Source of the DNA: Cytophagales bacterium
Lineage (GTDB): Bacteria; Bacteroidota; Bacteroidia; Cytophagales; Spirosomataceae
Assembly (NCBI GenBank): GCA_013298215.1
Contig: JAAFKE010000015.1
Span: 1-64,000 of the forward strand
Reading direction: 5' to 3'
Length of the DNA stretch: 64,000 bases
The notes under the pieces were generated by a model. That model worked only from the letters and a program-made list of their open reading frames with translations. It had not been told where the DNA came from and did not search any database. A program made the translations under genes and the position numbers. Within the stretch, counting starts at the first letter, position 1; every line of letters starts with the position of its first letter. This document shows positions 3,955 to 43,270 of this stretch, piece after piece.

Positions 3955-4944
3955 ATGCCTACTAAGTTTCTGGTAATCAGGTTCTCGTCGATCGGAGACA
4001 TTGTGCTCACAACCCCCGTGGTGCGCGCCATCAAAACGCAACTGCCCAACGTTGAGGTGCATTTTTGTACTAAATTGGCCTACAAAGACCTCGTTATCAA
4101 CAACCCGTACATTGACAAATGTCATTTTTTAGAAAACAGCATTTTTGATTTAATTGCCAAGCTACGCGCCGAGCGTTTTGAGTTCGTGATAGACCTCCAC
4201 AACAACTTACGCACCACGCTCATTAAATATGCCCTCGGCGTTGATGCGATCGGGTTTAGTAAATTGAACGTCGAAAAATACCTTTATACGCGGTTCAAAA
4301 TCAACGTGTTGCCCAGGGTACACATTGTAGATCGGTACATGAAAACCGTGAAGCCTTTTGGGGTCAAGAACGACGGGAAGGGCTTGGATTTTTTTATTCC
4401 TTACAAAGACCAGGTGGAGAGCGACTGGCTACCGCCAACGCACCAAAATGGATTTGTGGCCTATGCGATCGGTGGACAGCACGCCACCAAAAAGTTGCCG
4501 CTGGAACGGATGATCGAACTGTGCCAAAAAATTAATTATCCGATCGTACTTTTGGGGGGCAAAGAAGACGCGCCCCAGGCCCAGCAGATCGAAGGTGCGC
4601 TGGGCAATGCCCTCATTTACAATGCCTGCGGCAAGTATAATTTCAACCAGTCGGCTTCATTGGTAGAGCAGTCGGAGTTGGTGTTTAGCCACGACACCGG
4701 TTTGATGCACGTGGCGGCGGCCTTTGGCAAAAAAATATACTCGATCTGGGGCAGTACCACCAAAGATTTTGGAATGTATCCCTACAATACGCCCTACGTA
4801 ATTTTAGAAAACAACGAACTCGACTGCCGCCCTTGTTCAAAAATAGGGCACGATAAATGTCCCCAAGGGCATTTTAATTGCATGAAGGCCCTAAGTTTTG
4901 ATTTCGAGATCCGAGAACTCAGAAATAAATCTCGAACGATTTGA
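3955..4944 (+). CDS. Glycosyltransferase family 9 (heptosyltransferase-like)
   Basis: GT9 enzymes such as WaaC and WaaF transfer ADP-heptose to the lipopolysaccharide core at the inner face of the cytoplasmic membrane. The N-terminal Rossmann half has RFSSIGDIVLTTPVVRAIK (9-27). The donor-binding half has the SHDTGLMHVAAAFGK block (245-259) and IWGSTT (264-269). The C-terminus has four cysteines (291, 294, 302, 309) in a CRPC-x7-C-x6-C pattern that may bind a metal or be structural. The length of 329 aa is typical. It follows gpmI by 12 nt. The sugar donor cannot be decided from sequence. Confidence 0.85.
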   Translation: MPTKFLVIRFSSIGDIVLTTPVVRAIKTQLPNVEVHFCTKLAYKDLVINNPYIDKCHFLENSIFDLIAKLRAERFEFVIDLHNNLRTTLIKYALGVDAIGFSKLNVEKYLYTRFKINVLPRVHIVDRYMKTVKPFGVKNDGKGLDFFIPYKDQVESDWLPPTHQNGFVAYAIGGQHATKKLPLERMIELCQKINYPIVLLGGKEDAPQAQQIEGALGNALIYNACGKYNFNQSASLVEQSELVFSHDTGLMHVAAAFGKKIYSIWGSTTKDFGMYPYNTPYVILENNELDCRPCSKIGHDKCPQGHFNCMKALSFDFEIRELRNKSRTI

Positions 4945-5013
4945 GGCAAACAGTTACCCACAATTCACTACCCCGTATTTACTTAGTCATACCACCATTC
5001 GGCCATTGTTACC

Positions 5014-5898
5014 GTGTCTAAAAAAATCAAAATTGGTCTCGTTCAGATGTCGTGCAGCGAGCGCGTCGATCAAAATGTAGAGAAAGCCGTGGCGGGCATA
5101 CGCCAAGCAGCGGCGGCGGGTGCGCAGATTGTGTGCTTGCAGGAGCTTTTTAGTTCGTTGTATTTTTGCGACGTTGAAGACCAACAAAACTTCGGCCTGG
5201 CCGAGGCCATTCCTGGACCCACCACCGATGCGCTGTCGGAAGTGGCCAAAGCGCTGGGCGTGGTCATCGTTGCGTCGTTGTTCGAGAAGCGTGCCGCTGG
5301 TTTGTACCACAACACCACCGCCGTTTTAGATGCCGACGGCGCGTATTTGGGCAAGTACCGCAAGATGCACATTCCAGACGACCCTGGTTACTACGAAAAA
5401 TTTTATTTCACCCCCGGCGATGCCTCCGCTGACGACCCTGGTTATAAGGTATTCGAGACAAAGTTTGCCAAAATTGGCGTGCTCATTTGCTGGGATCAGT
5501 GGTATCCCGAGGCTGCCCGCATAACGACTTTGATGGGCGCGGAGGTGCTGTTTTACCCAACGGCAATTGGGTGGGACACCAACGAGACCAACCCCGCTGC
5601 CAACCAAGAGCAGTACGACGCGTGGCAGGTTGTGCAGCGCGGCCACGCAGTGGCCAACGGCATTCACGTGGTGGCCGTGAACCGCGTGGGCCGCGAGGCC
5701 GACCAGCAGTTTTGGGGCGGGTCGTTTGTGAGCAATCCGTTCGGGCGGTTGTTGTATTTGGCTCCGCACCACCAGGAGGTAGTGCACGTGCAGGAAATTG
5801 ACCTCGCCGACACCGAATACTACCGAAATACTTGGCCCTACCTGCGCGACCGCCGGGTAGATTCGTACCAACCCATCACAAAACGCTACATTGATTAA
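5014..5898 (+). CDS. aguB: N-carbamoylputrescine amidase (nitrilase superfamily)
   Basis: Hydrolyses N-carbamoylputrescine to putrescine, CO2 and ammonia, the last step of the agmatine route to polyamines. The nitrilase catalytic triad is visible as Glu44 (CLQELF), Lys117 (GKYRKMH) and Cys159 (LICWDQW). The ICWDQWYPEAAR block and the YPTAIGWD strand are characteristic of AguB among nitrilases. The start codon is GTG at 5014; no ATG in frame fits better. It is flanked by glycosyltransferase genes, and the usual partner agmatine deiminase (AguA) is not in the window. The substrate is inferred from similarity. Confidence 0.88.
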   Translation: MSKKIKIGLVQMSCSERVDQNVEKAVAGIRQAAAAGAQIVCLQELFSSLYFCDVEDQQNFGLAEAIPGPTTDALSEVAKALGVVIVASLFEKRAAGLYHNTTAVLDADGAYLGKYRKMHIPDDPGYYEKFYFTPGDASADDPGYKVFETKFAKIGVLICWDQWYPEAARITTLMGAEVLFYPTAIGWDTNETNPAANQEQYDAWQVVQRGHAVANGIHVVAVNRVGREADQQFWGGSFVSNPFGRLLYLAPHHQEVVHVQEIDLADTEYYRNTWPYLRDRRVDSYQPITKRYID

Positions 5899-5902
5899 AC
5901 CC

Positions 5903-6745
5903 ATGAATACCCCCAAAGTGAGCGTCTGTGTGCCTACTTTCAACCACCAAGCCTACATTGCGCAAATGCTCGATGGGGCTTTGGCGCAGCAGACCGATTT
6001 TGAGTTTGAGATTGTAGTCGGCGACGATGCCTCTACCGACCAAACGCCCGCCATTGTGGGGCAGTACGCTGCCCGTTTTCCGGGTAAGATCAGGGCTTTT
6101 TTGCACCCAACCAACCAAGGGCCGCCGCAGCCCAAAGAGTTTGCGGGGCGCAACAATGTGTTGCAGCTTTTGAAGGCTTGTGCGGGCCAATACGTGGCCT
6201 TGTGCGAGGGCGACGACTATTGGACGGATCCGTTGAAACTCCAAAAACAAGCCGATTTTCTGGACAAAACCCCAACCTGCGCCATTTGCCACCACAACCT
6301 GCGGGTTGTGTACGAAGACGGCTCGGCGGCGCATGATTTCAACCAAAGCGACCAAAAAATAGACTCTACCCTGGCCGACGTACTGGCCGACCGTTGGTTT
6401 ATTGGTACGGCCAGTACGTTTTACCGCAATATTTTTAGGGAACAAGATTTTGCCCGTTGGCACGCCAAAGCTGCCAGCGGCGACTGGGCCCTGGTGCTCC
6501 AGTTGGCCGCCACGGGAAGCATTCATTACTTGCCCCAAACCATGGGTGTGTACCGCAAGCACCAAGGCGGGCTGAGTAATGTACACGCGTCGGACAATGT
6601 TTTTTTTCTAAAAAACCGCCAGCAAATGTTTGAAGACGTGAACGTTTGGACGGATTTTAGGTTCGACGGCATCATCAAAAAAACGATCGAAAAATACCAA
6701 AATAGCATTGCAGAACTCACCCAAAAAAGGAACGAATCAGTATGA
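5903..6745 (+). CDS. Glycosyltransferase family 2
   Basis: An inverting GT-A fold transferase. It has the N-terminal VSVCVPTFNH strand (6-15), the nucleotide-binding VVGDDAST (38-45) and the ACAGQYVALCEGDDYW segment (92-107), whose acidic pair would bind the metal-nucleotide. There is no membrane segment. A TTG at 5891 is also in frame, but the ATG at 5903, 5 nt after the aguB stop, matches the family start. Its stop overlaps the start of the next glycosyltransferase by 4 nt (ATGA), so the two are probably co-translated. The acceptor is unknown; cell-surface polysaccharide or glycoprotein assembly is likely from context. Confidence 0.85.
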   Translation: MNTPKVSVCVPTFNHQAYIAQMLDGALAQQTDFEFEIVVGDDASTDQTPAIVGQYAARFPGKIRAFLHPTNQGPPQPKEFAGRNNVLQLLKACAGQYVALCEGDDYWTDPLKLQKQADFLDKTPTCAICHHNLRVVYEDGSAAHDFNQSDQKIDSTLADVLADRWFIGTASTFYRNIFREQDFARWHAKAASGDWALVLQLAATGSIHYLPQTMGVYRKHQGGLSNVHASDNVFFLKNRQQMFEDVNVWTDFRFDGIIKKTIEKYQNSIAELTQKRNESV

Positions 6746-7476
6746 AATTAAGCGTAGTTATACCCGCCTACAACGAAGAGGAGTCGCTCCCGCAAACGCT
6801 CAGGTTGCTGCACGAAACGTTGAAAAAACACGGTATCGAGCACGAAATCTGCGTGACCAACGATAGCTCGAAGGACGGAACGCTGCGGGTTTTGGACGAG
6901 CTAACCCTGGAGATACCCACGTTGGTGTATTTTACCAACCCTGGGCCAAATGGTTTTGGGTATGCGGTGCGCTACGGTTTGGAGCGTTTCACAGGCGGCT
7001 GCGCGGCGGTGTTTATGGCCGATATGTCGGACGACCCCGAGGATTTGGTAAAGTACTACCGCAAAATGCAGGAGACCGACGTTGATTGTGTTTTTGGTTC
7101 GCGCTGGGACGAGGGGGGGAGGGTGGTCGATTATCCGCCCGCCAAAAAAATTATTAACCGGGTGGCCAATCTTATCATTCGCGCCACGATGCGCATCAAA
7201 TACAACGACACCACCAACGCCTTTAAACTCTACAAGCGCGAAACCATCGAGGGCCTGAAACCATTTTTGGCGCCGCATTTCAACCTCACCATCGAGCTGC
7301 CACTCAAAGCCATGGTGCGCGGCTACACCTACGCCGTGGTGCCAAACAGCTGGACGAACCGAAAGTATGGTGAGTCGAAATTGAAAATAAAAGAAATGGG
7401 AAGCCGCTACTTTTTTATCCTGATGTATTGCGTCATAGAAAAGTATTTTGCCCGGGGCGACTACCGAAAAAAATAA
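6742..7476 (+). CDS. Glycosyltransferase family 2, polyprenyl-phosphate sugar transferase-like
   Basis: Resembles dolichol/polyprenyl-phosphate mannosyltransferases of the DPM1 type, which load a sugar onto a lipid carrier on the cytoplasmic face. The GT-A motifs are SVVIPAYNEE (4-13), VTNDSSKDGT (38-47) and MADMSDDPED (92-101). No C-terminal membrane helices are present, as in the short DPM1-type enzymes. The start overlaps the preceding stop by 4 nt. It ends the gpmI-GT run and faces a minus-strand membrane protein gene. Confidence 0.83.
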   Translation: MKLSVVIPAYNEEESLPQTLRLLHETLKKHGIEHEICVTNDSSKDGTLRVLDELTLEIPTLVYFTNPGPNGFGYAVRYGLERFTGGCAAVFMADMSDDPEDLVKYYRKMQETDVDCVFGSRWDEGGRVVDYPPAKKIINRVANLIIRATMRIKYNDTTNAFKLYKRETIEGLKPFLAPHFNLTIELPLKAMVRGYTYAVVPNSWTNRKYGESKLKIKEMGSRYFFILMYCVIEKYFARGDYRKK

Positions 7477-7515
7477 CGTTGGCTTGCCCCAAAAATAATC
7501 GTCCGAGAACCTGTG

Positions 7516-7956: not shown

Positions 7957-8171
7957 GGCTTTATACGGGTACAACGCATCGAGAATTAATTGAATTGGGC
8001 GTGCAGACCCCCAATTGGATTTACCAAACTTACTGAATAATACTACTGACTGCCAACGCTCGTATTGCTGATGGTTGGAAAATAGAACTCCGTCGGCCTG
8101 TAAGCGCTGCCCATTGTTATTCCCGCCGCCCAACCATTGGTAATACCCATATTGGTGGCAGTCTTTTCTTG

Positions 8172-9443
8172 TTATTTCAATTTCTTATAAAGTATTAAAC
8201 CCGTAATTATGACCCCTACCACCCCTGCTACCCAAGTGAGTTTTCGTTTCAATTTGTCCGCTTCGTCATAATCACTGTTTAATAAATTATTGGGTTTTAT
8301 GTAAATGAAGTTATTTTGAAAATCGATAATTTGATTAAATCTTTTCAAAATATCACTACCAATCAAAGGTCTTTCGTAAGGTTTTTGTTGGGTTTTATCC
8401 TGCAAATCAATAGGTACATCTTTAAGTACCAAACTGCCCAAAAAAAGTTTCGGCACTAAAACAGTTTCAGTTTCACCGTTCATATTTGTTCTACGATGAC
8501 CAATTTTTGTCATTGTGCCATACAAGTTATTCGTATTGCAGAATGCGTTATCAACTAATAGACTATTATCGTAACCATTATCGAACATAAACCATTTTCC
8601 AGTTTTTTTGCTGTTGTTGTCAATAGTTATAAATATGTTGGGTACGCCATCTCTAATTTCGGTTTCAATTTTTTCAAAGCCAGCTTTAATTATCGGTAAT
8701 TTTGAATGGAAAACAATTATTTTATTGTCGTAGTCTATTTCAACTATTTTTTCTTGCAGTAAATCGTTTCCAATTATTCCTTGGTAATTCCAACCTGTTT
8801 TCTTGGTAGAAAAAAAAACAATATCATCCCAGATCATTTTTCCCATCTGAACTTTATTGCTTTGGCTCGATTTTACCATTGTAGTGCCCTGAACACTTCC
8901 CATTTCACCTGAACCTGTCCACGTAATATGATTGTTGTCTGCCACATTTTCTCTGATGATGCAAGATGTTGTACCTAAATCAAAAAGAAAATCTACTTCT
9001 TTGTTGTCATTTACTTTTACTTTAACATAAATTTTGTTGTTTATTCCAAGTTCAAACGGAATTGTATCACTTGTAATTTCACATTTATCGCAGTTTTTTT
9101 TATAGTTATTTGCTTTTGGGGGCAAAGTAGAAACCCTTGTCAAACAACTATCTTTTTCTTTCAGTACAATTATAAAGTCATAAATCTGATTATATTTCAC
9201 ATCAAAAGAAATACTATCAACATCCGTATAAAAAGTTACTTTATGCGTTTTTTTGGGGTTTTCGACATGATAATAGTCTGGTTTTTTTTCAGGCATAATA
9301 TACCACCAACCATCTCGTAAATGTGTTCCATCAAGAACTGTAACATTTTTGGAGTTTGCTTTGATTGTTTGCAGCGTTTTCTGAGCAAAGCTAAACTGTC
9401 CTAATAGTGTTAGTACAGCCAAAATTATTTTATTTTTTGTCAT
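8172..9443 (-). CDS. Secreted, membrane-anchored double retropepsin-like aspartic protease
   Basis: A 423-residue protein with a signal peptide (cleavage near SFA-Q, 18-21) and a C-terminal membrane helix (about 403-420), so most of it should lie in the periplasm. It has two retropepsin-like halves. The first has FLFDLGTTS (153-160, Asp155) and the family hallmark GIIGNDLL (222-229). The second has MFDNG (286-290, Asp288) and PLIGSDIL (359-366). Pepsin-type folds need two Asp-bearing halves, so a single-chain enzyme is plausible, although DLGT and DNG depart from the canonical D-[TS]-G-[TS]. The gene is much more AT-rich than its neighbours, which suggests recent acquisition. Substrate unknown. 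Confidence 0.65.
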   Translation of the reverse strand: MTKNKIILAVLTLLGQFSFAQKTLQTIKANSKNVTVLDGTHLRDGWWYIMPEKKPDYYHVENPKKTHKVTFYTDVDSISFDVKYNQIYDFIIVLKEKDSCLTRVSTLPPKANNYKKNCDKCEITSDTIPFELGINNKIYVKVKVNDNKEVDFLFDLGTTSCIIRENVADNNHITWTGSGEMGSVQGTTMVKSSQSNKVQMGKMIWDDIVFFSTKKTGWNYQGIIGNDLLQEKIVEIDYDNKIIVFHSKLPIIKAGFEKIETEIRDGVPNIFITIDNNSKKTGKWFMFDNGYDNSLLVDNAFCNTNNLYGTMTKIGHRRTNMNGETETVLVPKLFLGSLVLKDVPIDLQDKTQQKPYERPLIGSDILKRFNQIIDFQNNFIYIKPNNLLNSDYDEADKLKRKLTWVAGVVGVIITGLILYKKLK

Positions 9444-9559
9444 TTTTAGCGTAAGTAAGGAAACTTAGATTCAATTTAAGCGTCAGCATTTTTTTGTTTT
9501 TTTCTTTAACAACAATAGGTCCTTAGTGGCTTGCCAGTTATGACCTGCGTTCGCAACCG

Positions 9560-10000
9560 CTACGCGTCGTCGGTTTTTTTGCCAACGCCAAACAACTGCC
9601 AGCGGTCCAGCTGGTCTTCCATGTCGGAGAGTTCTATTTTTAGCGCGCTGATCGACATCGATATTTCCCACACCGACAAACCCAGCGCAACAATCTGCAT
9701 CACCAGCGCACCGTAAAACAGCCCCCGCGCCGCCAGTTGCAGGCCCTGCATAATGAGCAAAATGCAGACCGAACTCAGCAGCAGACTCGACACAATAATG
9801 ATCTGAATGTTGCGGATTAACTGCAAGCGGCGGTGCAGGTTCCTGATCTGATCTACGTAGAAGGTGCTTTTATTGGTCTGAAACTTGTCGTGCAAATCGC
9901 GGATCAAACTTGCAATGGCCAAATAACGGTTCGTGAAGGCGATCATCATGAGCGAAACCGTCGAAAATAAAAGGGCTGGGGTACTAATGGCGAGTTCCAT
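9560..10000 (-). CDS. DUF2721 family membrane protein
   Basis: A 146-residue membrane protein. It has an N-terminal hydrophobic segment with STPALLFSTVSLMMIAFTNRYL, a basic/helical middle (RIRDLHDKF ... NLHRRLQLIRN) and two further membrane segments, then an acidic tail. This order is typical of DUF2721. The ATG at 10000 is chosen over an upstream non-ATG start because the family begins with the TPALLF block. Function is not known. Confidence 0.72.
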   Translation of the reverse strand: MELAISTPALLFSTVSLMMIAFTNRYLAIASLIRDLHDKFQTNKSTFYVDQIRNLHRRLQLIRNIQIIIVSSLLLSSVCILLIMQGLQLAARGLFYGALVMQIVALGLSVWEISMSISALKIELSDMEDQLDRWQLFGVGKKTDDA

Positions 10001-10318
10001 GGTTGGTTGTGGTGGATGTTTGTTTTGTAACGAAATAAAATCGTTTTGTGATCCAACTCCAGCGGTTTTAGTGGCCGAAACCACTATTTATCAACGGTTT
10101 CCGATGCTAAATAATGGAAATAAATTACCACTCGATAATTTCCATAGCCTAAAATGACCGTTGGATAGGTGTATTGCACCAACTCTCGGGGTTGCTTCTA
10201 CATTTGCCTCCATAGTCTCACTGCTATAATTAACGCCAACACGCTCCTCAAAAAACGTCGCTCAACGCAAACCACATGAATTTGTAAATGTTTCTAACCA
10301 ATTGTAAACACCATCCTC
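10001..10318. other. 318-nt intergenic region between divergent genes, no recognised element
   Basis: It separates the DUF2721 gene (minus) from the CotH gene (plus). I see no convincing TAnnTTTG promoter, hairpin or small ORF. TGAATTTG near 10275 is one base off a -7 element for the CotH gene. Confidence 0.5.
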
Positions 10319-11942: not shown

Positions 11943-13589
11943 TTACGAGTACAGTTTTTGGTAGTATTCGGTGGCCATGCGGTCGGAGGTGAAAAACGCA
12001 TCTACGTCGTTCATGCTTTGAAGCACCAATTTTTGCCAATCGGCGGGGCGGTCGTAGTACATCGGCAGGATTACTTGCTCCAATTGGGTGAAAAAATTGT
12101 CGATATCAACACCATCGCGGTTGGCATCGGGAGCCACGGGTACGATGAACGAGTTTTCGTTGTTGCGGGCAAACTCACAAATCCAGCCGTCAAACGTCGA
12201 AACGTTCACGCTGGCGTTCATGGCGGCGGTCATGCCACTCGTTCCTGAGGCCTCGCGCGTTACCACGGGCGTGTTGAGCCAGCCGTCCGACCCATTTTTG
12301 AGCAACTTCGACAGCCCTAACTCGTGGCCCGTCAGCACGGCCATGTTCGGGTAGAGGTGGCTCAAATAAAACAGTCGGTTGAAGGTATTGATCGCGCCGT
12401 CGTCTTTTGGGTAAGGTTTTCCTGCCCAAATAAACTGAATGGGGTAGGTGGTGTTTTTCATCAAACGCTCAAACCGCGCTTGGTTGTGGGTTAGCAGGTC
12501 GGGGCGTTTGTAGCCCGCAAAACGCCGCGCCCACACCATCGTAAACACATTGGGGTCGAATAGCTTGCCTGCTTGGTCGGCCACCACGTCAAAAAGCGGC
12601 TTTTTTAGTTCTTTTTTGCGTTTGCCGATGGCTTTCAAGTCGCCCTTCAAACGGGCTTTTTCTAAATCTGCGTCGGCCCAGTAGTTTTTATTTTGGGCAT
12701 TGGTCACGTGGGTAATGTTGCAGATGTCCGAATAACCGCCCCACATCTTGCGCGACACCTCGCCGTGCAACGCCGAAACACCGTTGGCTTTGCGGCTCAA
12801 CCGCAGCGCTGCCAGCGAGTGGTTAAAAGTACTATCGGGCGTTCCCGTTATTTTACGAACCTCGGTCAATGGCACGCCCGCAAAAAAGCCCATTTTGTCC
12901 AACAGGTTTATATCGTGTTTTTCGTTGCCCGCTTCCTCGGGCGTGTGGGTCGTAAAAACCAAACGCGCTTTCACCTCATCGACACTTTTTAGTTTTTTGT
13001 ACAAATAAAATGCCGAAGAAACGGCGTGGGCTTCGTTGAGGTGATAGACCTCGGGCTGGTAGTCGAGGGCATCCAGGAGCTTTGCTCCGCCAATGCCCAA
13101 AATCATGCACTGCGCTACTTTGGTGGTTGCGGAGGCATCGTACAGGTGGTACGACAACTTGCGTGCCTCGATGTCGTTACCGTCGGTGTCGGTTGTCAGA
13201 AAAAACATGGGAACAGTACCAAAAACCTGCGGCGGCAAAAAGTAGGCCGCCACCCAAACGGCTCGCCCCTCGATCTCAATTTGAAACCGAATGGTGGTGT
13301 CCTGCAAAAAAGAGTACATTTTTTCCCTAAACTGGCACGCCATGCTGTTGTCGGCGGCGCGCACTTGGTCGTAGTAGCCCATTTTCCAGAGCATCCCGAT
13401 CCCGATGAGGTTCTGTTTTTTTTCGGCGGCACTTCTCATGTGCGAGCCAGCCAAAAAACCCAGCCCTCCCGAGTACGTTTTTAGGGATTGGTCGATGGCA
13501 AACTCCATCGAAAAATAGGCAACGGACTTCTCGAAGGTGGGGTCGAAGGGGTAATTGTGCGCAAAACGCGCGGGTAGTTGTGCAGACAT
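11943..13589 (-). CDS. Short alpha-glucan phosphorylase homologue (GT35) lacking the PLP lysine
   Basis: GT35 enzymes degrade glycogen or maltodextrin to glucose 1-phosphate with pyridoxal phosphate. At 548 aa it belongs to the short alpha-glucan phosphorylase type, not the 800-850 aa GlgP. Recognisable blocks are YSGGLGFLAGSHMRSA, YHLNEAHA, FTTHTPEEAGN, WARRFAGYKRPDLL and EASGTSGMTAAMN. The last block normally carries the Lys that binds PLP (SGTSGMK or SGTGNMK). Here the codon is ACC (Thr), clear in the DNA near 12230. Phosphate-site residues in ARRFAGYKR are kept. It may be an altered or inactive enzyme; related short proteins in Bacteroidota may share this change. Confidence 0.82.
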   Translation of the reverse strand: MSAQLPARFAHNYPFDPTFEKSVAYFSMEFAIDQSLKTYSGGLGFLAGSHMRSAAEKKQNLIGIGMLWKMGYYDQVRAADNSMACQFREKMYSFLQDTTIRFQIEIEGRAVWVAAYFLPPQVFGTVPMFFLTTDTDGNDIEARKLSYHLYDASATTKVAQCMILGIGGAKLLDALDYQPEVYHLNEAHAVSSAFYLYKKLKSVDEVKARLVFTTHTPEEAGNEKHDINLLDKMGFFAGVPLTEVRKITGTPDSTFNHSLAALRLSRKANGVSALHGEVSRKMWGGYSDICNITHVTNAQNKNYWADADLEKARLKGDLKAIGKRKKELKKPLFDVVADQAGKLFDPNVFTMVWARRFAGYKRPDLLTHNQARFERLMKNTTYPIQFIWAGKPYPKDDGAINTFNRLFYLSHLYPNMAVLTGHELGLSKLLKNGSDGWLNTPVVTREASGTSGMTAAMNASVNVSTFDGWICEFARNNENSFIVPVAPDANRDGVDIDNFFTQLEQVILPMYYDRPADWQKLVLQSMNDVDAFFTSDRMATEYYQKLYS

Positions 13590-13607
13590 TAGGCGGCAGA
13601 TAAGGGT

Positions 13608-13706
13608 TTAGACAGGTTGTACGAAGGCAATATCGACGGGGCGCGTTGCCAGTAAGCGGAAGGTGAAAATGTATAAAAACAGTAAAAGCAAGACCAAAAA
13701 GATCAT
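13608..13706 (-). CDS. Candidate 32-aa single-pass membrane microprotein upstream of the phosphorylase
   Basis: A small open frame ATG (13704-13706) to TAA (13608-13610). Residues 2-16 are almost all Leu/Ile/Val/Phe, followed by a basic flank (FRLLATR) and a short polar tail. That is the layout of a single membrane helix. It ends 18 nt before the phosphorylase ATG at 13589 and follows the FMN reductase stop on the same strand. No homologue is recognised. A spurious ORF cannot be excluded. Confidence 0.35.
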   Translation of the reverse strand: MIFLVLLLLFLYIFTFRLLATRPVDIAFVQPV

Positions 13707-13730
13707 TTTGCTATCCAAACTACAAAGGTC

Positions 13731-14309
13731 TTAGGCGATTTGCCAGCGTTTGGCTACTTCGAGCGAGTAGTCTAAAAATGCTTTTGTGCCTTTTTCAAAA
13801 ACTTCATTTCCGAGCGAATCACCGTTGGCATCCAGATTTTTTGGAATCTCGTGGGCTTCAAAAACCCTGGGCGAAACCACCGAAAACTGGTTGCCAAAAC
13901 TAATTACTTTATTGACCATCATGGTCATTTCGAGCGCTGGCTGGCGGCCTCCGCGTCCGCTCGACGTGCCCGCAAAGGCAAAAGTTTTGTTGTTGAAAAG
14001 GTGCATAAAATCGCGGCCACCGAGGTGGTTCACGGCGTTAATGAGCTCGGCGTTGGGCAACCAATTGTATTCAGGAATGGCCATAATGACCAAATCGGCA
14101 GCCTCCCAGTTCGTAATGAGCGCGTGCTGAAACGTCGTCAAGTTGTCTTTATTGATACTTGTGCCAACATTTGGCATGTCAAAGCCGCTAAAATCAACCA
14201 GGCTCACCTGCGCCGAGGCATCGGCTTGAAGCTGGTTTTGCAAGTACTTGGCAAACCGAAGTGAGTTGCTGTTATGGCGTGGCGATGACGAAATAATGAG
14301 AATATTCAT
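13731..14309 (-). CDS. NAD(P)H-dependent FMN reductase family protein
   Basis: A 192-residue flavodoxin-fold protein. It has ISSSPRHNSNSLRFA (6-20), the phosphate-binding loop, then VIMAIPEYNWLPNAELINAVNHLG, the central NAD(P)H-dependent reductase motif. FAGTSSGRGG is the third FMN contact. Such enzymes reduce FMN, quinones or chromate with NAD(P)H in the cytoplasm. The physiological substrate cannot be assigned. It lies on the minus strand 68 nt after a DUF4293 gene. Confidence 0.83.
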   Translation of the reverse strand: MNILIISSSPRHNSNSLRFAKYLQNQLQADASAQVSLVDFSGFDMPNVGTSINKDNLTTFQHALITNWEAADLVIMAIPEYNWLPNAELINAVNHLGGRDFMHLFNNKTFAFAGTSSGRGGRQPALEMTMMVNKVISFGNQFSVVSPRVFEAHEIPKNLDANGDSLGNEVFEKGTKAFLDYSLEVAKRWQIA

Positions 14310-14377
14310 ATTTTCTATAATGATGAATGATTGGATGACAGGATGTTGAATGTGAATTAAAAGTTGTGCGTTGGCGC

Positions 14378-14845
14378 TTACCTCATTCGCTCGCTTTCTT
14401 TAACCATGCGCTCGTCGCGGCGGATGAACCGATTGGCCAATAAGTTGCCCAACATGGCCAATATGAGCGCAAAAAAACCCATTTGGTAGCTTCCTGGCTC
14501 TTGCGGATCGAAGAGGTTTTTGCCTTTACTGTACGAAAAATACAGAACGGTGGCCATTAGAGCGGTCATTAAAATAGAATTGAGGGCGCACAATGCCGAC
14601 TGTACCAGCCGATTTTTGTAGCGCGTAATGGCGAAAGCCGCCACCGCCGCCACTGCCACCGCCAGCACGGCAATGTACCAAGTGGGCGTAATGTAGGAGC
14701 TGATGCCCTGCTTGTGCACCAATTGGAACGCGGTAAGTTCCGCGCTGTTGGTGGGCGATGTTTTTGTCCAGATCGGAAGCACCAAAAATGCTCCCATTCC
14801 CACGCCCACCAAGCCTAAAAATAGCGTTTGGATTCGTTGCAACAT
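14378..14845 (-). CDS. DUF4293 family membrane protein
   Basis: A 155-residue protein starting MLQRIQTLFLGL, which is the typical DUF4293 N-terminus in Bacteroidota. Four membrane helices are visible (about 7-27, 55-76, 86-106, 120-141), with a charged C-terminus (RRDERMVKESERMR). The ATG at 14845 is preferred over a TTG two codons upstream. Function is not known. Confidence 0.75.
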   Translation of the reverse strand: MLQRIQTLFLGLVGVGMGAFLVLPIWTKTSPTNSAELTAFQLVHKQGISSYITPTWYIAVLAVAVAAVAAFAITRYKNRLVQSALCALNSILMTALMATVLYFSYSKGKNLFDPQEPGSYQMGFFALILAMLGNLLANRFIRRDERMVKESERMR

Positions 14846-14904
14846 AATCAAAAAATAGGTTTTGTTTGTGAAATAAAATGGATACTAATCGGATAAAAAA
14901 CCAG

Positions 14905-15489
14905 TTATCGGGGGAACTTCATCCTGTAATCTACCTTCACGTTGCCCTTGGTGATGTCGGCCAGTCGTTTTTTGAGAATCTGCCGTTTCAAAATCGGCAT
15001 ATAATCGGTAAAGAGTTTCCCTTCGAGGTGGTCGTATTCGTGCTGAATGATGCGGGCGGCCATTCCGTCAAAATCGCGGGTGAACTCGTTACCGTCTTCG
15101 TCGAAATAATTAATGGTTATGCGCTCGGGCCGTAGCACGTCGCTTCTAATTCCTGGAATGCTCAGGCAGCCCTCTTCATAAGCCCACTTGCCGCCGTCGG
15201 TGGCCGTGATCTCTGGATTGATAAACGCCATTTTGAAATCGATCAGGCTCGGGTCGGGCTCAAAATCGTCGCCGTCGTCTTCGTCGGGATCATTGAGTGG
15301 CCTGCCATCGACCACAAAAATGCGGATGCTTTTGCCCACCTGCGGGGCGGCCAAGCCTACGCCAGCGGCTTCGTACATGGTTTCGTACAAATCTGCCACA
15401 AACTGCTTAACGTCAAACACTTCGGGGTCTATCTCTTGGGCTATTTTTCGCAGAACGGGATCGCCGTAGGGTACAATCGGGTAAATCAT
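14905..15489 (-). CDS. def: Peptide deformylase
   Basis: Removes the N-formyl group from nascent proteins; Fe(II)/Zn enzyme of the cytoplasm. All three signature motifs are present: GVGLAAPQVG (43-52), EEGCLSIPG (105-113, metal ligand Cys108) and QHEYDHLEG (149-157, His150, Glu151, His154). An acidic loop (DPDEDDGDDFEPDP, 67-80) sits between motifs one and two, where other Bacteroidota deformylases also carry a charged insertion. The length of 194 aa is normal. The next gene upstream on the same strand is ruvX, 49 nt away. Confidence 0.95.
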   Translation of the reverse strand: MIYPIVPYGDPVLRKIAQEIDPEVFDVKQFVADLYETMYEAAGVGLAAPQVGKSIRIFVVDGRPLNDPDEDDGDDFEPDPSLIDFKMAFINPEITATDGGKWAYEEGCLSIPGIRSDVLRPERITINYFDEDGNEFTRDFDGMAARIIQHEYDHLEGKLFTDYMPILKRQILKKRLADITKGNVKVDYRMKFPR

Positions 15490-15538
15490 TGGTACTGTTG
15501 CTAATTAAAAAAATGCGTAAAATATTAAAGTAGGTGTT

Positions 15539-15970
15539 TCATAAACGGTGCGCGCGCATGCTTTGCTGGCTCATGTACGACTGCAAAATAATGGTGGCAC
15601 TCACCTGATCGATCGCCCCTTTTTGGCGGCGGTCGCTCTTTTTTGTGCCACTCGCAATCATCGCCTGCAATGCCATCGAGGTCGTAAACCGCTCGTCGTG
15701 CTGGTGAATTGGCACGTCTGGGAACGCTTTTTGAAGCTGTTTTATGAAGCCCTTCACCAAAGGTGTGTTGTTGGTGTCGGTGCTGTCCAATCGTTTGGGC
15801 ATACCTACCACAAACGCTTCAACGGGTTCGGTTTCGGTGTATTTTTTCAAAAAATCGATCAATAAAAACGTTCGCACGGTTTCCAAAGCGGTGGCTATAA
15901 TCTGCAACGGGTCCGTCACGGCGAGGCCCGTTCGCTTGGCTCCGTAATCTATGGCAACAATTCGCGGCAT
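15539..15970 (-). CDS. ruvX: Holliday junction resolvase-like / pre-16S rRNA nuclease YqgF
   Basis: A 143-residue RNase H-fold protein. It starts MPRIVAIDYGAKRTGLAVTD with the catalytic Asp in AIDYG. It has VVGMPKRLDSTD and HQHDERFTT blocks and the C-terminal Asp in KGAIDQVSATIIL. The family is known for processing the 5' end of 16S rRNA and may be involved in recombination. The open frame extends upstream, but the ATG at 15970 gives the standard start and length. It is divergent from gldH. Confidence 0.92.
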   Translation of the reverse strand: MPRIVAIDYGAKRTGLAVTDPLQIIATALETVRTFLLIDFLKKYTETEPVEAFVVGMPKRLDSTDTNNTPLVKGFIKQLQKAFPDVPIHQHDERFTTSMALQAMIASGTKKSDRRQKGAIDQVSATIILQSYMSQQSMRAHRL

Positions 15971-16031
15971 TGGTTTTCGGTGTTTGAGCGCAAATATACG
16001 ATTTTTAGCCGTAGAATCGTTCCATAAAAGG

Positions 16032-16062
16032 TTTGAAACCTTGGTAGTCTGTGTTAGTTTTG
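16032..16062 (+). promoter_or_regulatory. Bacteroidota-type promoter of gldH
   Basis: TTTG (16032-16035), 19 nt, TAGTTTTG (16055-16062): a near-perfect match to the Bacteroidota consensus. It predicts a start near 16069 and a 10-nt leader to the ATG at 16079. Confidence 0.6.
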
Positions 16063-16078
16063 CAAAAAAAGTGATCGT

Positions 16079-16597
16079 ATGAAACCACCCCGAAGCGCAG
16101 TAAGTTGGTACTCTTTGAAGCCGCTTGCCATTTCTTTTGCCGCCACCACCATGCTCCTCGTGGCGGCCTGCAACCAAAACGCGCTCTTCAAAGACCACCG
16201 CGACATTGAGGATGGACTTTGGTACACCAAAATAACGCCCACGTTCGAGTTCGAGATCAGCGACACCACCCAAAGTTATGACATCTATTATTTGATCCGA
16301 AACAGCGTGGGGTATCCTTATTTCAACTTATTTGTGAAACGACGATTATTAGACGGCACTACTGGAAAAGAAATAACGGCTAAATTGGACGAACTCTCGC
16401 TGATGGACGAGCGCACGGGCAAACCGCTGGGCGAAGGCCTGGGGGATATTTTTGACCACCGCATATTGGCCATGAAAGCCTACAAATTCCCCAAAAAAGG
16501 CACCTACAAACTTCAAATCGAACAATTTATGCGCCAAAACCCCCTGCCCGAGGTACTGAGCGTGGGTATTAGCGTGGAACCAAACCTAAAACCATGA
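16079..16597 (+). CDS. gldH: Gliding motility lipoprotein GldH
   Basis: A 172-residue lipoprotein; the signal sequence ends in LLVAACNQN, with the lipidated Cys at about 31. The DIYYLIRNSVGYPYFNLFV block is characteristic of GldH. In Flavobacterium johnsoniae GldH is required for gliding and chitin use, and is grouped with the T9SS-associated Gld proteins. The stop overlaps the next start by 4 nt (ATGA). PorU, PorV and GldD are encoded about 17-23 kb further on. Confidence 0.88.
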   Translation: MKPPRSAVSWYSLKPLAISFAATTMLLVAACNQNALFKDHRDIEDGLWYTKITPTFEFEISDTTQSYDIYYLIRNSVGYPYFNLFVKRRLLDGTTGKEITAKLDELSLMDERTGKPLGEGLGDIFDHRILAMKAYKFPKKGTYKLQIEQFMRQNPLPEVLSVGISVEPNLKP

Positions 16598-17223
16598 AAA
16601 ACTCACTCGCGTTATTTCCGCTCAATCTGGTTGCCTACCCCAACGAAGACCTCAACCTGCATATTTTCGAGCCAAGGTATCGGCAGTTGGTAAATGAGTG
16701 CTTGGAAACGGGAAAAACATTCGGAATTCCCGCTTTTGTGGACGGCAAATTGATGGGATACGGCACCGAAATGAAGGTGACTAACCTCGAACAAAAATAC
16801 GATGGCGGCCAAATGGACGTGAACACCAAGGGCGTTCGGGCGTTTAGGCTTACGTCGTTCGAGAATCCGATGCCCAAAAAACTGTACGCGGGCGGCACGG
16901 TGGTGTTTTTAGAACAAGCCAACGAATACAAGTCGCCTTCGTTCGACCTTTTGGATGCCATTGCCCACCTCTACGAACTGCTGGGTGCGGAGGCGGCCTA
17001 TGACATTTCGCAGCCTTATTTTTCGTACCAAGTGGCCCACAAAATTGGTCTTTCTTTGGCCGACGAATATAAACTCCTAACCATTTTTGACGAAGTTGAA
17101 CGACAGGCTTTTTTGGCCGACCACTTGGAGAAAAGCATCCCAGTTTTGGCCGAAATGGAACGCACCAAAGAACGCATTAAAATGAACGGGCATTTCAAAA
17201 ACCTGGACACTCTCGACTTCTAA
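16594..17223 (+). CDS. LON N-terminal (substrate-binding) domain protein
   Basis: A 209-residue stand-alone LON N-domain protein, lacking ATPase and protease parts. It begins with ALFPLNLVAYPNEDLNLHIFEPRYRQLV, the hallmark of PF02190. The C-terminal half is helical. Such proteins are widespread in Bacteroidota; their function is not settled. It is translationally coupled to gldH by an ATGA overlap. Confidence 0.82.
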   Translation: MKNSLALFPLNLVAYPNEDLNLHIFEPRYRQLVNECLETGKTFGIPAFVDGKLMGYGTEMKVTNLEQKYDGGQMDVNTKGVRAFRLTSFENPMPKKLYAGGTVVFLEQANEYKSPSFDLLDAIAHLYELLGAEAAYDISQPYFSYQVAHKIGLSLADEYKLLTIFDEVERQAFLADHLEKSIPVLAEMERTKERIKMNGHFKNLDTLDF

Positions 17224-21641: not shown

Positions 21642-21980
21642 ATGAAAGAAACCACACTACTCTTAGAGAACGACCAGCTCATGGATGAGTTGATTAGCCT
21701 TCTAAAACAAAAGTTCGACGTATTGACGACCGACAATCAGAAAGACAAACTGGTACTATTGGCAAAGTCGCAGCGAAACCGTAAGTCGAGTATTGAAAAA
21801 CACGGGTTAAGTGTTCGTCAGGTCCAGATCATGAACTTCTTAGCCGAGGGCCTAACCTACAACCAGATGTCGGACCAAATCGGTATCAGCGTAGACGGCG
21901 TTCGTTTCCACATCAAACAAATCTATCGGGGGCTGGACGTGACCAACAGCCGAGAAGCAATCAAAAGATTTTTCGATTAA
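21642..21980 (+). CDS. Small stand-alone LuxR-type HTH protein
   Basis: A 112-residue protein whose C-terminal ~65 residues form a LuxR/NarL helix-turn-helix: LSVRQVQIMNFLAEGLTYNQ, then IGISVDGVRFHIKQIYRGL. There is no receiver or ligand-binding domain; the N-terminal ~45 residues are a short charged helix region. It is therefore a DNA-binding-only protein, like the small GerE-type regulators. It lies 117 nt upstream of the two-gene membrane operon, with an RNA-type stem between. Target genes are unknown; the operon is the nearest candidate. Confidence 0.75.
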   Translation: MKETTLLLENDQLMDELISLLKQKFDVLTTDNQKDKLVLLAKSQRNRKSSIEKHGLSVRQVQIMNFLAEGLTYNQMSDQIGISVDGVRFHIKQIYRGLDVTNSREAIKRFFD

Positions 21981-22002
21981 ACCACCGAGTTATTGAGTAT
22001 GA

Positions 22003-22052
22003 TCCGCCAGTTGCGGTCCGTCAATACACAAAAACGGATCGTAACTGGCGGA
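22003..22052 (+). other. 19-bp stem-loop between HTH gene and coiled-coil membrane operon
   Basis: TCCGCCAGTTGCGGTCCGT (22003-22021) pairs with 22034-22052 across a 12-nt loop. The only non-Watson-Crick pairs are two G-U pairs if the plus strand is transcribed; on the minus strand they would be A-C mismatches. No T-run follows, so it is not a standard terminator. It could be a leader structure of the operon or a processing site. Confidence 0.5.
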
Positions 22053-22097
22053 CACATTAGTATGCATTAGCCCAAGTCCATTAACAGCCATCAACCC

Positions 22098-23171
22098 ATG
22101 GGTATAATTAGTAAACTAAGAGCCTTTTTTACAGATGTACCTGATGGCTCGGCACCCCTACTCGCGGCAGCGGAGGGGCTGCCTGCGAGCACTGACGAAA
22201 GTGAGGTGCTTGGTGAAGCGTATCTGCACAAAACTGAAAATTTGCCAGCCATAATGCCCGTTCCGGGGTGGCTTCGCGACGAGGAAAGTCTGCGAGATGA
22301 GGCCGTAGTGTTTGGCCTCACTACCATTTCGATGGACGATAAGGTTGCCATAATTCACAATTATTTTGCCAGCCAAACCTCCCACACAGCGCAAAACCTG
22401 GCCCATACCCGTCAAAAAATGGGTGAGTTCGACCTGCGCATTGGCCACAAAAAAGACCAAATCTACGAACTCGAAAAACTGCATACTACCGTCGAAAGCA
22501 ATGGAGCTACCCCGCCGCAGATGCCGCGCGTGGTGGTGGGCTTTGGGTTGTCTATTGCCATGTGCGTGAGCAATTTCTACCTGATAGAACAGAGCCTACG
22601 GCCACTTTATGGCAACAATCAGCTGGTGGCCGTTGGTGTTTTTTTAGCGGGTATGTTCAGTTTATTTGGTAGGATGTCGGTTTTTCACGACACTGATTCA
22701 AAACTCAACTGGCGAAAACTTTTAGAAGAAATAGGAATGCCCGCCGCCGCCGCAACTTTCATATTGGTTCAGGCTGCCCAAAGCCAGCCAATTGAGCGAG
22801 CACTCGCGCTGTTTTTTTTTGTATTTTTCTTGTTTCTTTTGTCGGGCAAACTTTTACTTAGCAACCTGTCGGCACTCACAACTGAGGTGGCAAGGCTGTT
22901 AAAACAAGCAACAGATCGTCGGCAGAAACAAGTACGTTGCCGCGAGGTAGTAGATTTGCAGGCTCAAATAGATGTTCTCGAAGCCGAAAAGAGTCAGCTT
23001 GTGCCCGCTGCCAACCGCGACGAGGCAGAACTGACGCGTCAAAATGCGCGCCGTGACATGCTCGTTAAATTATTTGAAAGCGAATTTAAATTGGCCCGAA
23101 CCGTCCGTGAGCAGCTGTCGGAACGGCAGCTTGGACAACTTTTAAACCAAAACTACGCAGATGGTCAATGA
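22098..23171 (+). CDS. Unknown coiled-coil membrane protein A (357 aa)
   Basis: I recognise no family. It has a soluble N-terminus of ~90 residues with Asp/Glu-rich stretches, a helical coiled-coil segment (about 95-135), four membrane segments in two pairs (about 144-164, 174-192, 211-229, 233-256), and a long charged coiled coil (about 262-330). The N-terminal part and the long C-terminal helix are probably cytoplasmic. No catalytic motif is seen. Its stop overlaps the start of gene B by 11 nt, so the two products are probably made together. Gene B has the same general plan, which suggests a hetero-oligomeric membrane complex. Function is unknown. Confidence 0.72.
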   Translation: MGIISKLRAFFTDVPDGSAPLLAAAEGLPASTDESEVLGEAYLHKTENLPAIMPVPGWLRDEESLRDEAVVFGLTTISMDDKVAIIHNYFASQTSHTAQNLAHTRQKMGEFDLRIGHKKDQIYELEKLHTTVESNGATPPQMPRVVVGFGLSIAMCVSNFYLIEQSLRPLYGNNQLVAVGVFLAGMFSLFGRMSVFHDTDSKLNWRKLLEEIGMPAAAATFILVQAAQSQPIERALALFFFVFFLFLLSGKLLLSNLSALTTEVARLLKQATDRRQKQVRCREVVDLQAQIDVLEAEKSQLVPAANRDEAELTRQNARRDMLVKLFESEFKLARTVREQLSERQLGQLLNQNYADGQ

Positions 23172-24543
23172 AAACGAAGATTACCAGCACGGCTACGCCA
23201 ACGGAGTAGAAAGTATTGACAAAAATTTCTACGAAGGCTACGTGTCGAGTAAGGTAAATTATGACTGGAATCTGGAGGCGATAAACGAACGAAAGGCCGA
23301 TTTGCAGCGAATTGACCGCGAAATTGACGACACGCAAGCCCGCCAAAAAATTGCGTTCGACCGTTTGCAGCAGTTTAGCTACACCGCAGGCGTACTCCAA
23401 AAACAGATAGATATTCACCAACACGAGCTGGCAACGGTAGCGCAGGAGAACGAATTGCTCCGCCAACGCCGCATCAATTCGAGCGCCGATTACTCGTTGC
23501 TGGGTGGTTTTATATTTGTGTTGGCTGGGCTAAGTTTTATATTCGGCGACCTGATTATATCGCACGAGATTGTGGCATACGCCCTCAATATCCGCGACAA
23601 CACCGATGCTTGGGCCTTTGCCGTGGGTTTGGCCATGGTATCGGTGCTCCTAAAACCAGTTTATGACCGTCTCATTGAGATTCCATACGCCAACGACCGT
23701 GCCGCCAGCCAGCGTACATACGGCCGTTTCAAAATTATTTTAGCTTGCTTTGCCGTACTCACGCTCGCCGTGTTGGGTTGGTTTAGGTACGACGCCTACC
23801 GAACAGATAAGCTCAAAGAGGCGATCAACAAAACCATTAAAAACCTGCAAAACACCGCTCCAATCGACCCCCAAACGGGCTTGCCGATGGCTTTAGACCA
23901 GCCCACATTGCAGCGCATTGAGCGCGAACTGCAAAACTTCGATGCCCTTAATCTTGACTTGGTAAACAGCCCCTGGGCGTTGCTGTCGTTTGTGCTGAGT
24001 GGGGTTTTGTTTGCGGTAGCTGGTGCAGTTTGCCTGGGAATCGGTCTCCCAGTTTTGCAGAAGTTTTGGTTTAGGTGGTTACAAATAGACCCGCGCTTGT
24101 GGCGGCTGCGAAGGCGCAAAGCAAAACACCAAAAGGCCCTCAAACCGCTTCAAAAAGAATGGGCCGACATGACCTCGCAGGAGAGAATTATTGAAAACGA
24201 GCTCGCCCAACTTACCCCCATTGCTGAACTTCGCCTCCGACGCGAAGGGATAGACGTTGAACTACGAAGCCTGGTCAATGTCATCAAAGGCATTGAGTCC
24301 GACTACCGCGTGGCGGCCTACAACGATGGGGTGTCGAGCGGAGAAAAGACCCGCGAAATGATGTCGAACGACGAATATAATGCGTTCAAGAACAGCCATT
24401 TCACAACCGCAAACTTAGCCCTCCGCGCCAAAGACTCTGCCGACAAACCCCTGACAATGGGTGGTGGCAAAAAAGCTCCAGCGTTGCGCCCGCACCTGGC
24501 AATTCGTAAAATGATAACGGATCAATTTGAGGGAGAACAATAG
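23161..24543 (+). CDS. Unknown coiled-coil membrane protein B (460 aa)
   Basis: No family is recognised. The N-terminus is acidic and Tyr/Gly-rich (EDYQHGYANGVESIDKNFYE), followed by coiled coil (about 40-105). Membrane segments lie at about 111-133, 148-166 and 189-208. A soluble loop (about 210-270) follows, then another hydrophobic segment (about 271-300) and a long charged helix (about 312-385). The tail is polar and basic. Like protein A it alternates coiled coil and membrane pairs. YNDGVSSGEKTREMMSN (387-403) echoes the N-terminal GYANGVES. The start overlaps gene A by 11 nt. The next gene (OsmC) is 107 nt away and very different in composition, so the operon probably ends here. Confidence 0.72.
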   Translation: MVNENEDYQHGYANGVESIDKNFYEGYVSSKVNYDWNLEAINERKADLQRIDREIDDTQARQKIAFDRLQQFSYTAGVLQKQIDIHQHELATVAQENELLRQRRINSSADYSLLGGFIFVLAGLSFIFGDLIISHEIVAYALNIRDNTDAWAFAVGLAMVSVLLKPVYDRLIEIPYANDRAASQRTYGRFKIILACFAVLTLAVLGWFRYDAYRTDKLKEAINKTIKNLQNTAPIDPQTGLPMALDQPTLQRIERELQNFDALNLDLVNSPWALLSFVLSGVLFAVAGAVCLGIGLPVLQKFWFRWLQIDPRLWRLRRRKAKHQKALKPLQKEWADMTSQERIIENELAQLTPIAELRLRREGIDVELRSLVNVIKGIESDYRVAAYNDGVSSGEKTREMMSNDEYNAFKNSHFTTANLALRAKDSADKPLTMGGGKKAPALRPHLAIRKMITDQFEGEQ

Positions 24544-41992: not shown

Positions 41993-43270
41993 TTAGCCCA
42001 CCTCCACCCGCGACAACGACTCGATTTGCCAGTATTTGTTGGCTATTTCTATAATTTGCTGCGGGGTCACTTGCCTAATCTTTTGCACGTAATCGGCGTA
42101 GTAGTTGGGGTCTAAGCGTTCCAGTTGGATCATTTTCACGCGGTCAGCAATCTCAAAAGGTGTGTTGAGGTTGCCCACAAACTGCCCCGCCATGTAGTTT
42201 TTCACCGTTTGTAGCTCGTCGTCTGGCACAAGTTCGGTTTGTAGTTTTCGTATTTCTTTTTCAATCTCTTCCGACACTTGGCCCGCCAGCTCTTTTTTGC
42301 ATTCGCTGCTGATGATAAAATACCCATCGTTACTAAAGCTAAGTGCGCTCGACGATATTCCGTAGGTCAGCCCTTTTTCTTCGCGGATATTTTTCATGAG
42401 CCGAGACCCAAAATAGCCGCCCAAAATTTCGTTTGTCACCAATAATTTAAACCAATCGGCGTGGTGGCGCGTAATGAGCCGCTTGCCGAGCCTAATGGAA
42501 GTTTGTACACTTTCGGGCCGGTCTATGCGGCTTTGGGTTGTGTTTTGTGGGCCGTCAAAAACCGCCGTCGTTGGTTGGTCAGCGGTTGGCCAGTTGGCGT
42601 TGGGTTGCCCTAAAAACTGGTTCACCAAGGCCACGTCCTGCTCCGAGATCCTGCCCGACAACACCACCGCGCGTGGGCGCGTGTTGATGCGCTGCGCGTA
42701 GAAATGCCGTAAATCTTGCGTTTCCACGGCCGCAATGGTGTTTTCTTGCTGGCTTTTTCCGTAGGGATGCGCGTTTCCGAACAGGCTTTGGCGGAGCATG
42801 ACCGACGCCAAGTACCCGTTTTTTTCTTGATTGACCTTTAAATTTTGGAGCGTGCTATTTCTGATTGTTTCTAACTCGGCTTCTGGAAAAACCGCTTCCG
42901 ACAGCAGTTCGCTCACCATCGGCAAAATAGCTGCCAAGTGTTTGGTTAGGCCATACACCGACAAATTGGCGCGGTCGGAGCCGTGCCCGAGGTCAATAAA
43001 AGCGCCGATGCTGTCGAAATACTCGCTAATTTGAACGGCTGTTTTTTGCTTGGTACCCTCGGCGAGCATCTTCATTGTAAAAAAAGAAACGCTGTCTTTG
43101 GGTTCAAACCAAGTGCCCGCGTCGAAGATCACCTCCAAACGAACGATGGGCTGTTGGCCCACGTTGATGATGTACAAAGGGGTGCCGTTGTCCAAAGTTT
43201 GGGTTCTTGCCGCAGGAAAATTAACTTCTTGAATCGTCTGAAACTCGGGGGCTGTTGTTCGGTTGAGCAT
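41993..43270 (-). CDS. M16-family (insulinase-like) protein without the zinc motif
   Basis: A 425-residue protein with the two-domain M16 fold: FFTMKMLAEGTKQK where active subunits have HFLEHMLFKGT, and KGLTYGISSSALSF plus the C-terminal Arg/Tyr-type region (LNTPFEIADRV). The HxxEH motif is absent (FFTMKMLAEG), so it should be the non-catalytic partner of a zinc M16 peptidase; none is in the window. No signal peptide is seen. It lies 66 nt upstream of the sigma gene, 71 nt downstream of menC. Confidence 0.85.
   Translation of the reverse strand: MLNRTTAPEFQTIQEVNFPAARTQTLDNGTPLYIINVGQQPIVRLEVIFDAGTWFEPKDSVSFFTMKMLAEGTKQKTAVQISEYFDSIGAFIDLGHGSDRANLSVYGLTKHLAAILPMVSELLSEAVFPEAELETIRNSTLQNLKVNQEKNGYLASVMLRQSLFGNAHPYGKSQQENTIAAVETQDLRHFYAQRINTRPRAVVLSGRISEQDVALVNQFLGQPNANWPTADQPTTAVFDGPQNTTQSRIDRPESVQTSIRLGKRLITRHHADWFKLLVTNEILGGYFGSRLMKNIREEKGLTYGISSSALSFSNDGYFIISSECKKELAGQVSEEIEKEIRKLQTELVPDDELQTVKNYMAGQFVGNLNTPFEIADRVKMIQLERLDPNYYADYVQKIRQVTPQQIIEIANKYWQIESLSRVEVG

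Follow-up and report, generated by a model that had tools for sequence, protein, structure and literature searches.

Three genes, here called A, B and C, co-occur in related genomes and very probably work together. A and B are neighbours in the window, the stretch of 64,000 nucleotides from a Cytophagales bacterium that was analysed as a whole, and C is found at a separate locus of the same genome (Table 1). Here it is proposed, with a probability of roughly 0.5, that the products of A and B would form an inner-membrane hetero-complex and, with the lipoprotein C, an obligate three-protein complex across the envelope. A sequence-only reading of the window had described a two-gene system. The unrecognised membrane pair stands, and its members do co-occur, but the account was incomplete because C, lying elsewhere, was not visible from the window sequence and is needed to describe the system. 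No matching family or described system was found for A, B or C in the sources searched, and the set is in this sense an undescribed system; "new" refers here to absence from those sources and not to a mechanism demonstrated as new. A literature search, with most subscription papers outside its coverage, found no paper on these genes.

Gene pair A-B and its surroundings

The two overlapping open reading frames are present as had been described, and, of 59 related genomes, 31 have a homologue of A and 33 one of B, so they are not chance open reading frames. The two genes are adjacent and on the same strand in about 32 loci, and are neighbours in about 30 genera of Spirosomaceae. In most relatives a gap of ~10-150 nt separates them, and the 11-nt overlap is therefore local to the genome of the window, as is the translational coupling that had been read from it. 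A few relatives have a truncated or incomplete A or B. At locus L083 (genome G007), A (9381-10112) is shortened to 243 aa with much of the membrane region lost, next to a nearly full-length B, a case which could reveal a dispensable part of A.

AlphaFold2 gave all-helical models for both proteins, in which long helices flank the membrane segments, with a mean pLDDT of 68 for A (long soluble helices mostly 80-94) and 59 for B. Confidence was high in the long soluble helices and low in the membrane parts of both, because the input alignments for A and B held only eight and seven sequences, respectively. The distribution of positive charges around the hydrophobic segments suggests that both termini of A and B alike are cytoplasmic, and the segment of B at residues about 209-271 would be periplasmic, judging by its positive-inside flanks. 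The soluble helices are charged and have few Gly or Pro, except for a C-terminal stretch of B with seven. Their heptad periodicity was not significant (p 0.10-0.77), so that "long helices" is a safe description and a coiled coil, as had been claimed from the sequence, is likely but unproven. Bacteroidota is a phylum rich in gliders, and long cytoplasmic helices beside membrane helices would suit a cytoskeletal or gliding-motility anchor. This role is very unlikely, as no gliding or cytoskeletal genes were recognised among the recurrent neighbours, and the genes are patchy in Rhodothermia and missing from most of the sampled Bacteroidota; the cytoskeletal, motility and secretion roles suggested earlier find no support in the present data.

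Conservation is higher in B than in A. In 29 sequences of A, residues W58, R66, D67, E68, G73 and L74, ahead of the first long helix, are invariant, as are F326, E329, L332 and A333 close to the end of the C-terminal long helix. The best-conserved stretch of B comprises membrane helices 1 and 2, where D130, W151, K165, R170 and E173 are invariant as far as Rhodothermia and E136 nearly so. A G...G motif akin to the N-terminal motif of B reappears near its C-terminus, and R443, P444 and R449 in the tail are invariant from Spirosomaceae through Rhodothermia. The earlier claim of a shared plan was borne out: in a profile-to-profile comparison A and B matched over their C-terminal halves, beginning at the last membrane helix, with a probability of 78% (E 1.9e-5) against 0.7% for the reversed control, and therefore the two may be distant paralogues in these halves.

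Table 1. Features of genes A, B and C and of the elements upstream of A; positions are those of the window, unless a contig is named.
Feature	Position	Strand	Description and basis
HTH gene	21642..21980	+	small LuxR/GerE-type, 112 aa, outside the A-B system; GerE E 7.3e-11
RNA stem	22002..22054	.	~19-bp helix between HTH gene and A, outside the system; z -5.8
Gene A	22098..23171	+	membrane protein, 357 aa; ORF list, hydropathy, AlphaFold2, homologues
A, motif W..DE..LRDEG...GL	22269..22319	+	residues 58-74; alignment
A, N-terminal long helix	22332..22502	+	residues 79-135, predicted cytoplasmic; AlphaFold2, heptad test not significant
A, membrane region	22530..22859	+	four hydrophobic segments; hydropathy
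A, predicted membrane helices			four, residues about 145-163, 174-192, 208-226, 236-254; hydropathy
A, C-terminal long helix	22860..23132	+	extends last membrane helix; AlphaFold2, alignment
A, topology			predicted N-in/C-in, long cytoplasmic helix at each end; AlphaFold2 and hydropathy
A/B overlap	23161..23171	+	11 nt, ATGGTCAATGA
Gene B	23161..24543	+	membrane protein, 460 aa; ORF list, hydropathy, AlphaFold2, homologues
B, topology			four predicted membrane helices, predicted N-in/C-in, ~60-aa predicted periplasmic segment between helices 3 and 4
B, N-terminal motif D..HGY..G	23179..23205	+	residues 7-15; D7, G11, G15 invariant in 33 sequences
B, membrane helices 1 and 2	23503..23679	+	GDLIISHEIVAYALNIR..EAW.FA.GLA...LLKP.YDRL.E.P; alignment
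B, membrane helices 3 and 4	23728..24048	+	enclosing predicted periplasmic segment, residues about 209-271; AlphaFold2, hydropathy
B, C-terminal motif DG...G	24325..24342	+	residues 389-394, like the N-terminal one; G390, G394 invariant in 33 sequences
B, tail motif RP....R	24487..24507	+	residues 443-449; alignment
Gene C	contig C45, about 42215-42988		in the host genome of the window

The searches agree with the earlier statement that A and B contain no known domain; a clear match to a known family, which had been named in advance as evidence against the pair, did not appear. Neither protein gave a match in Pfam or NCBIfam at the curated cut-off, and PADLOC and PHROGs returned no convincing match, with coiled-coil similarity at noise level only. 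The profiles of A and B matched solved structures in the PDB only weakly, by coiled-coil or by chance, and scanning each aligned homologue of A and B against curated families gave scattered weak matches only. A Pfam family of the MotA/TolQ/ExbB type was matched neither by A or B nor among the listed matches of the alignment members. Of the 742 loose long-helix matches retrieved in a fold search with the A model, not one reached E<=0.001, and the search was therefore uninformative.

The small HTH gene and the RNA stem upstream of A had been taken to form a compact unit with the pair, and a regulatory unit of this composition can be argued from position only. The stem is a real fold present as one copy in the genome of the window, has no match in Rfam and is not conserved upstream of A in relatives; although it has no T run, it may serve the HTH gene as a terminator. 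At the 37 other loci, nothing homologous to the HTH gene was found within ~10 kb of A or B. With neither element conserved beside A-B in relatives, both were rejected as parts of the system, and the regulatory unit is largely refuted and extremely improbable.

The genes recurring beside A-B in relatives, by inspection, encode a ~220-aa unknown protein, an APC-type permease, PurA, a RelA/SpoT-like protein and an ArgB-like protein. They vary by genus and are missing beside the pair in the window, and were also rejected as further parts. The ~220-aa protein often precedes A, at about 20 Spirosomaceae loci (e.g. L068, 7734-8405) and not in the window. Elsewhere in the window, a 423-aa open reading frame (8172-9443, - strand) reads as an aspartyl protease of the retropepsin type that has a signal peptide and, at the C-terminus, a membrane helix; it is contained in a low-GC stretch (8001-10000, GC 0.375 against ~0.50 around it), which was possibly acquired recently. 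A 174-aa open reading frame (9560-10084, - strand), by its look a DUF2721-type membrane protein, lies partly in the same stretch.

Lipoprotein C and the co-inheritance of the three genes

In Rhodothermia, C is the gene directly after A-B and encodes a lipoprotein of ~260-270 residues; in Spirosomaceae it occupies a separate locus, with neighbours that differ among genomes. Among 24 aligned sequences the N-terminus is hydrophobic and is followed by an invariant lipobox cysteine, Cys18, the combination of N-terminal signal and invariant cysteine that defines bacterial lipoproteins. C also contains the motif D-x-S/T-x-S...T...SD (D41, S/T43, S45, T148, D174), in which D41, S45, T148 and D174 are invariant in the 24 sequences and the order is that of the VWA/MIDAS metal site. 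As a difference from VWA/MIDAS proteins, the spacing between the first and second motifs is long (~107 residues) and the profile similarity is not significant: in a small comparison of the C and VWA profiles the motifs fell in register, but one of 30 shuffles scored better. Pfam VWA_2 gave E 0.03 against C, reached in just two of the 24 members, the other matches to curated families were at noise level, and no solved VWA structure matched the C profile. C may thus be called VWA-like on motif grounds only.

The conserved residues of B and C bear on a further possibility, that A/B serves as an ion channel or transporter whose conduction path includes the charges of B helices 1 and 2, and C as a periplasmic metal-binding gate or ion supplier. 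The invariance of D130, K165, R170 and E173, the near invariance of E136 and the metal-site residues kept by C are consistent with it; however, no transporter or channel family matched A or B above the cut-off, the charged residues of B may sit at the membrane edges and not within the bilayer, and a simple transporter has no need of large cytoplasmic helices, which makes this function decidedly unlikely.

C is present in 31 of the 59 related genomes, nearly the same set as those with A and B. In contingency tests that ignore phylogeny, A and B share 31 of these genomes (p 1e-14), A and C share 30 with one of each found alone (p 1.6e-14), and B and C co-occur with p 1e-14. Across 396 genomes of Bacteroidota, the same nine carry A, B and C at E<=0.001, and the extra matches are one weak hit each for A and B, both within much longer open reading frames. 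The occurrence of A and B in different sets of genomes had been named in advance as evidence against the pair; the two were found in the same genomes. The three genes are contiguous in six genomes (G052, G061, G066, G115, G152 and G364). In a genome from another family of the order (G044) they are on three different contigs and all kept; that dispersed genes persist together in this way is the strongest indication that they share a function.

Incomplete sets are found in G013 (A and B, C not detected), in G032 (87% complete, B alone) and in G019 (B and C, A not detected). The B of G019 (L084, 9353-10504) also has the usual N- and C-terminal motifs missing, and at this locus the system may be decaying or have been reorganised. 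Two genera that belong to a single Rhodothermia family have genes near A-B-C for very long helical proteins (about 1150-1225 aa) whose N-termini are similar (L178 in G528, 13044-16721; L179 in G544, 4033-7485); these may be an additional partner there.

Type III CRISPR loci in Rhodothermia

Two plasmids of Rhodothermus marinus, pRMAR01 and pRHOM17201, have A-B-C within a type III-A locus. The three genes are flanked there by the csm1/ring-nuclease side and by csx2, and C ends 3 nt ahead of csx2; on pRMAR01 the genes are RMAR_RS14165, RMAR_RS14170 and RMAR_RS14175, annotated as hypothetical proteins. In another Rhodothermus genome (G061) the three genes adjoin genes for Cas10, RAMP and CARF proteins. 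G364 belongs to a different family, and there A-B-C leads directly into a Cas10/RAMP/Csx1 operon. A recruitment of A-B-C by type III CRISPR in Rhodothermia is possible, on the strength of two independent cases. Type III systems with membrane effectors, Cam1 and Csx23, are known (PMC10808066, PMC11014256).

Accordingly, A-B-C could be read as a phage-defence module at the membrane, which would sense, or would carry out a response in which the inner membrane is opened or disrupted, and which would have been recruited as a type III accessory in Rhodothermia. The loci just described count for this reading, as does the patchy spread of the genes in Rhodothermia (3/7 and 3/27 genomes). The type III context was found at three of seven Rhodothermia loci and at none in Spirosomaceae. 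Against the reading, cas genes are absent near A-B or C at the fetched Spirosomaceae loci and at the other four Rhodothermia loci (some contigs short). The presence of B and that of Cas10 are uncorrelated in the 59 relatives (p 1.0), and the genome of the window has no Cas10. Domain searches of A, B and C found neither CARF nor any other recognised domain for sensing cyclic nucleotides, and PADLOC gave no family above noise. In Spirosomaceae, moreover, the genes are widespread and have housekeeping genes as neighbours, which sets them apart from most defence genes. No homologue of B was found in the phages searched, and the plasmids searched gave the two R. marinus records only. A defence role, put forward earlier for the pair, retains limited support from outside Spirosomaceae and none within, and is unlikely. 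A general CRISPR link was rejected for the order of the window, given the uncorrelated Cas10 and the absence of cas genes nearby, and without a Cas10 association the system in the window does not require CRISPR.

A and B resemble Cam1 and Csx23 in being membrane proteins whose genes, in some genomes, lie in type III loci. They differ in that A-B-C comprises two membrane proteins and a lipoprotein in which no CARF or cA4-binding domain was found, and in that CRISPR is absent nearby, or Cas10 is lacking altogether, in most carriers.

Proposed trans-envelope complex

In the proposed trans-envelope complex, A and B would together form the inner-membrane part, each with four membrane helices and with its N- and C-terminus in the cytoplasm; there, the long helices of the two would build a large helical body. 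B would contribute the invariant charged residues in and beside membrane helices 1 and 2, as well as the periplasmic segment of ~60 residues. C would face the periplasm, or be anchored in the outer membrane, with its VWA-like domain keeping the MIDAS residues; in the most likely working, it would bind a partner in a metal-dependent manner and dock on B at its periplasmic side. The membrane helices of A/B could then relay the state of the outer envelope to the cytoplasmic helices, or a signal could run in the opposite direction.

In its logic only, this arrangement is like Tol-Pal-type trans-envelope complexes, which also have multi-helix inner-membrane partners and a lipoprotein, with adjacent genes in some lineages. 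A, B and C have no sequence match to the Tol, Exb, Mot or Pal families, however, and the large helices of A/B are placed in the cytoplasm, in contrast to the periplasmic arm of the TolA type. Zorya ZorA and MotA/ExbB-like proteins share with A/B the order of membrane helices followed by a long helical tail, but A and B have no PADLOC or Pfam match and no ZorB-like partner was recognised.

Three families without a curated model that are inherited as a set across distant families, even where their genes are scattered, predict a physical or functional complex, and A-B-C is a clean gene set open to testing. It is tentatively suggested, as a scenario of low probability, that A-B-C is a trans-envelope device of a new kind, in which the two-protein membrane complex links a metal-site lipoprotein to a helical body in the cytoplasm. 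In this scenario it would sense or act at the envelope on its own in Spirosomaceae, while in Rhodothermia type III CRISPR would have captured it as an arm acting at the membrane. In two lineages of Rhodothermia the genes sit within type III CRISPR loci, which provides a direct way to test a membrane-acting defence module.
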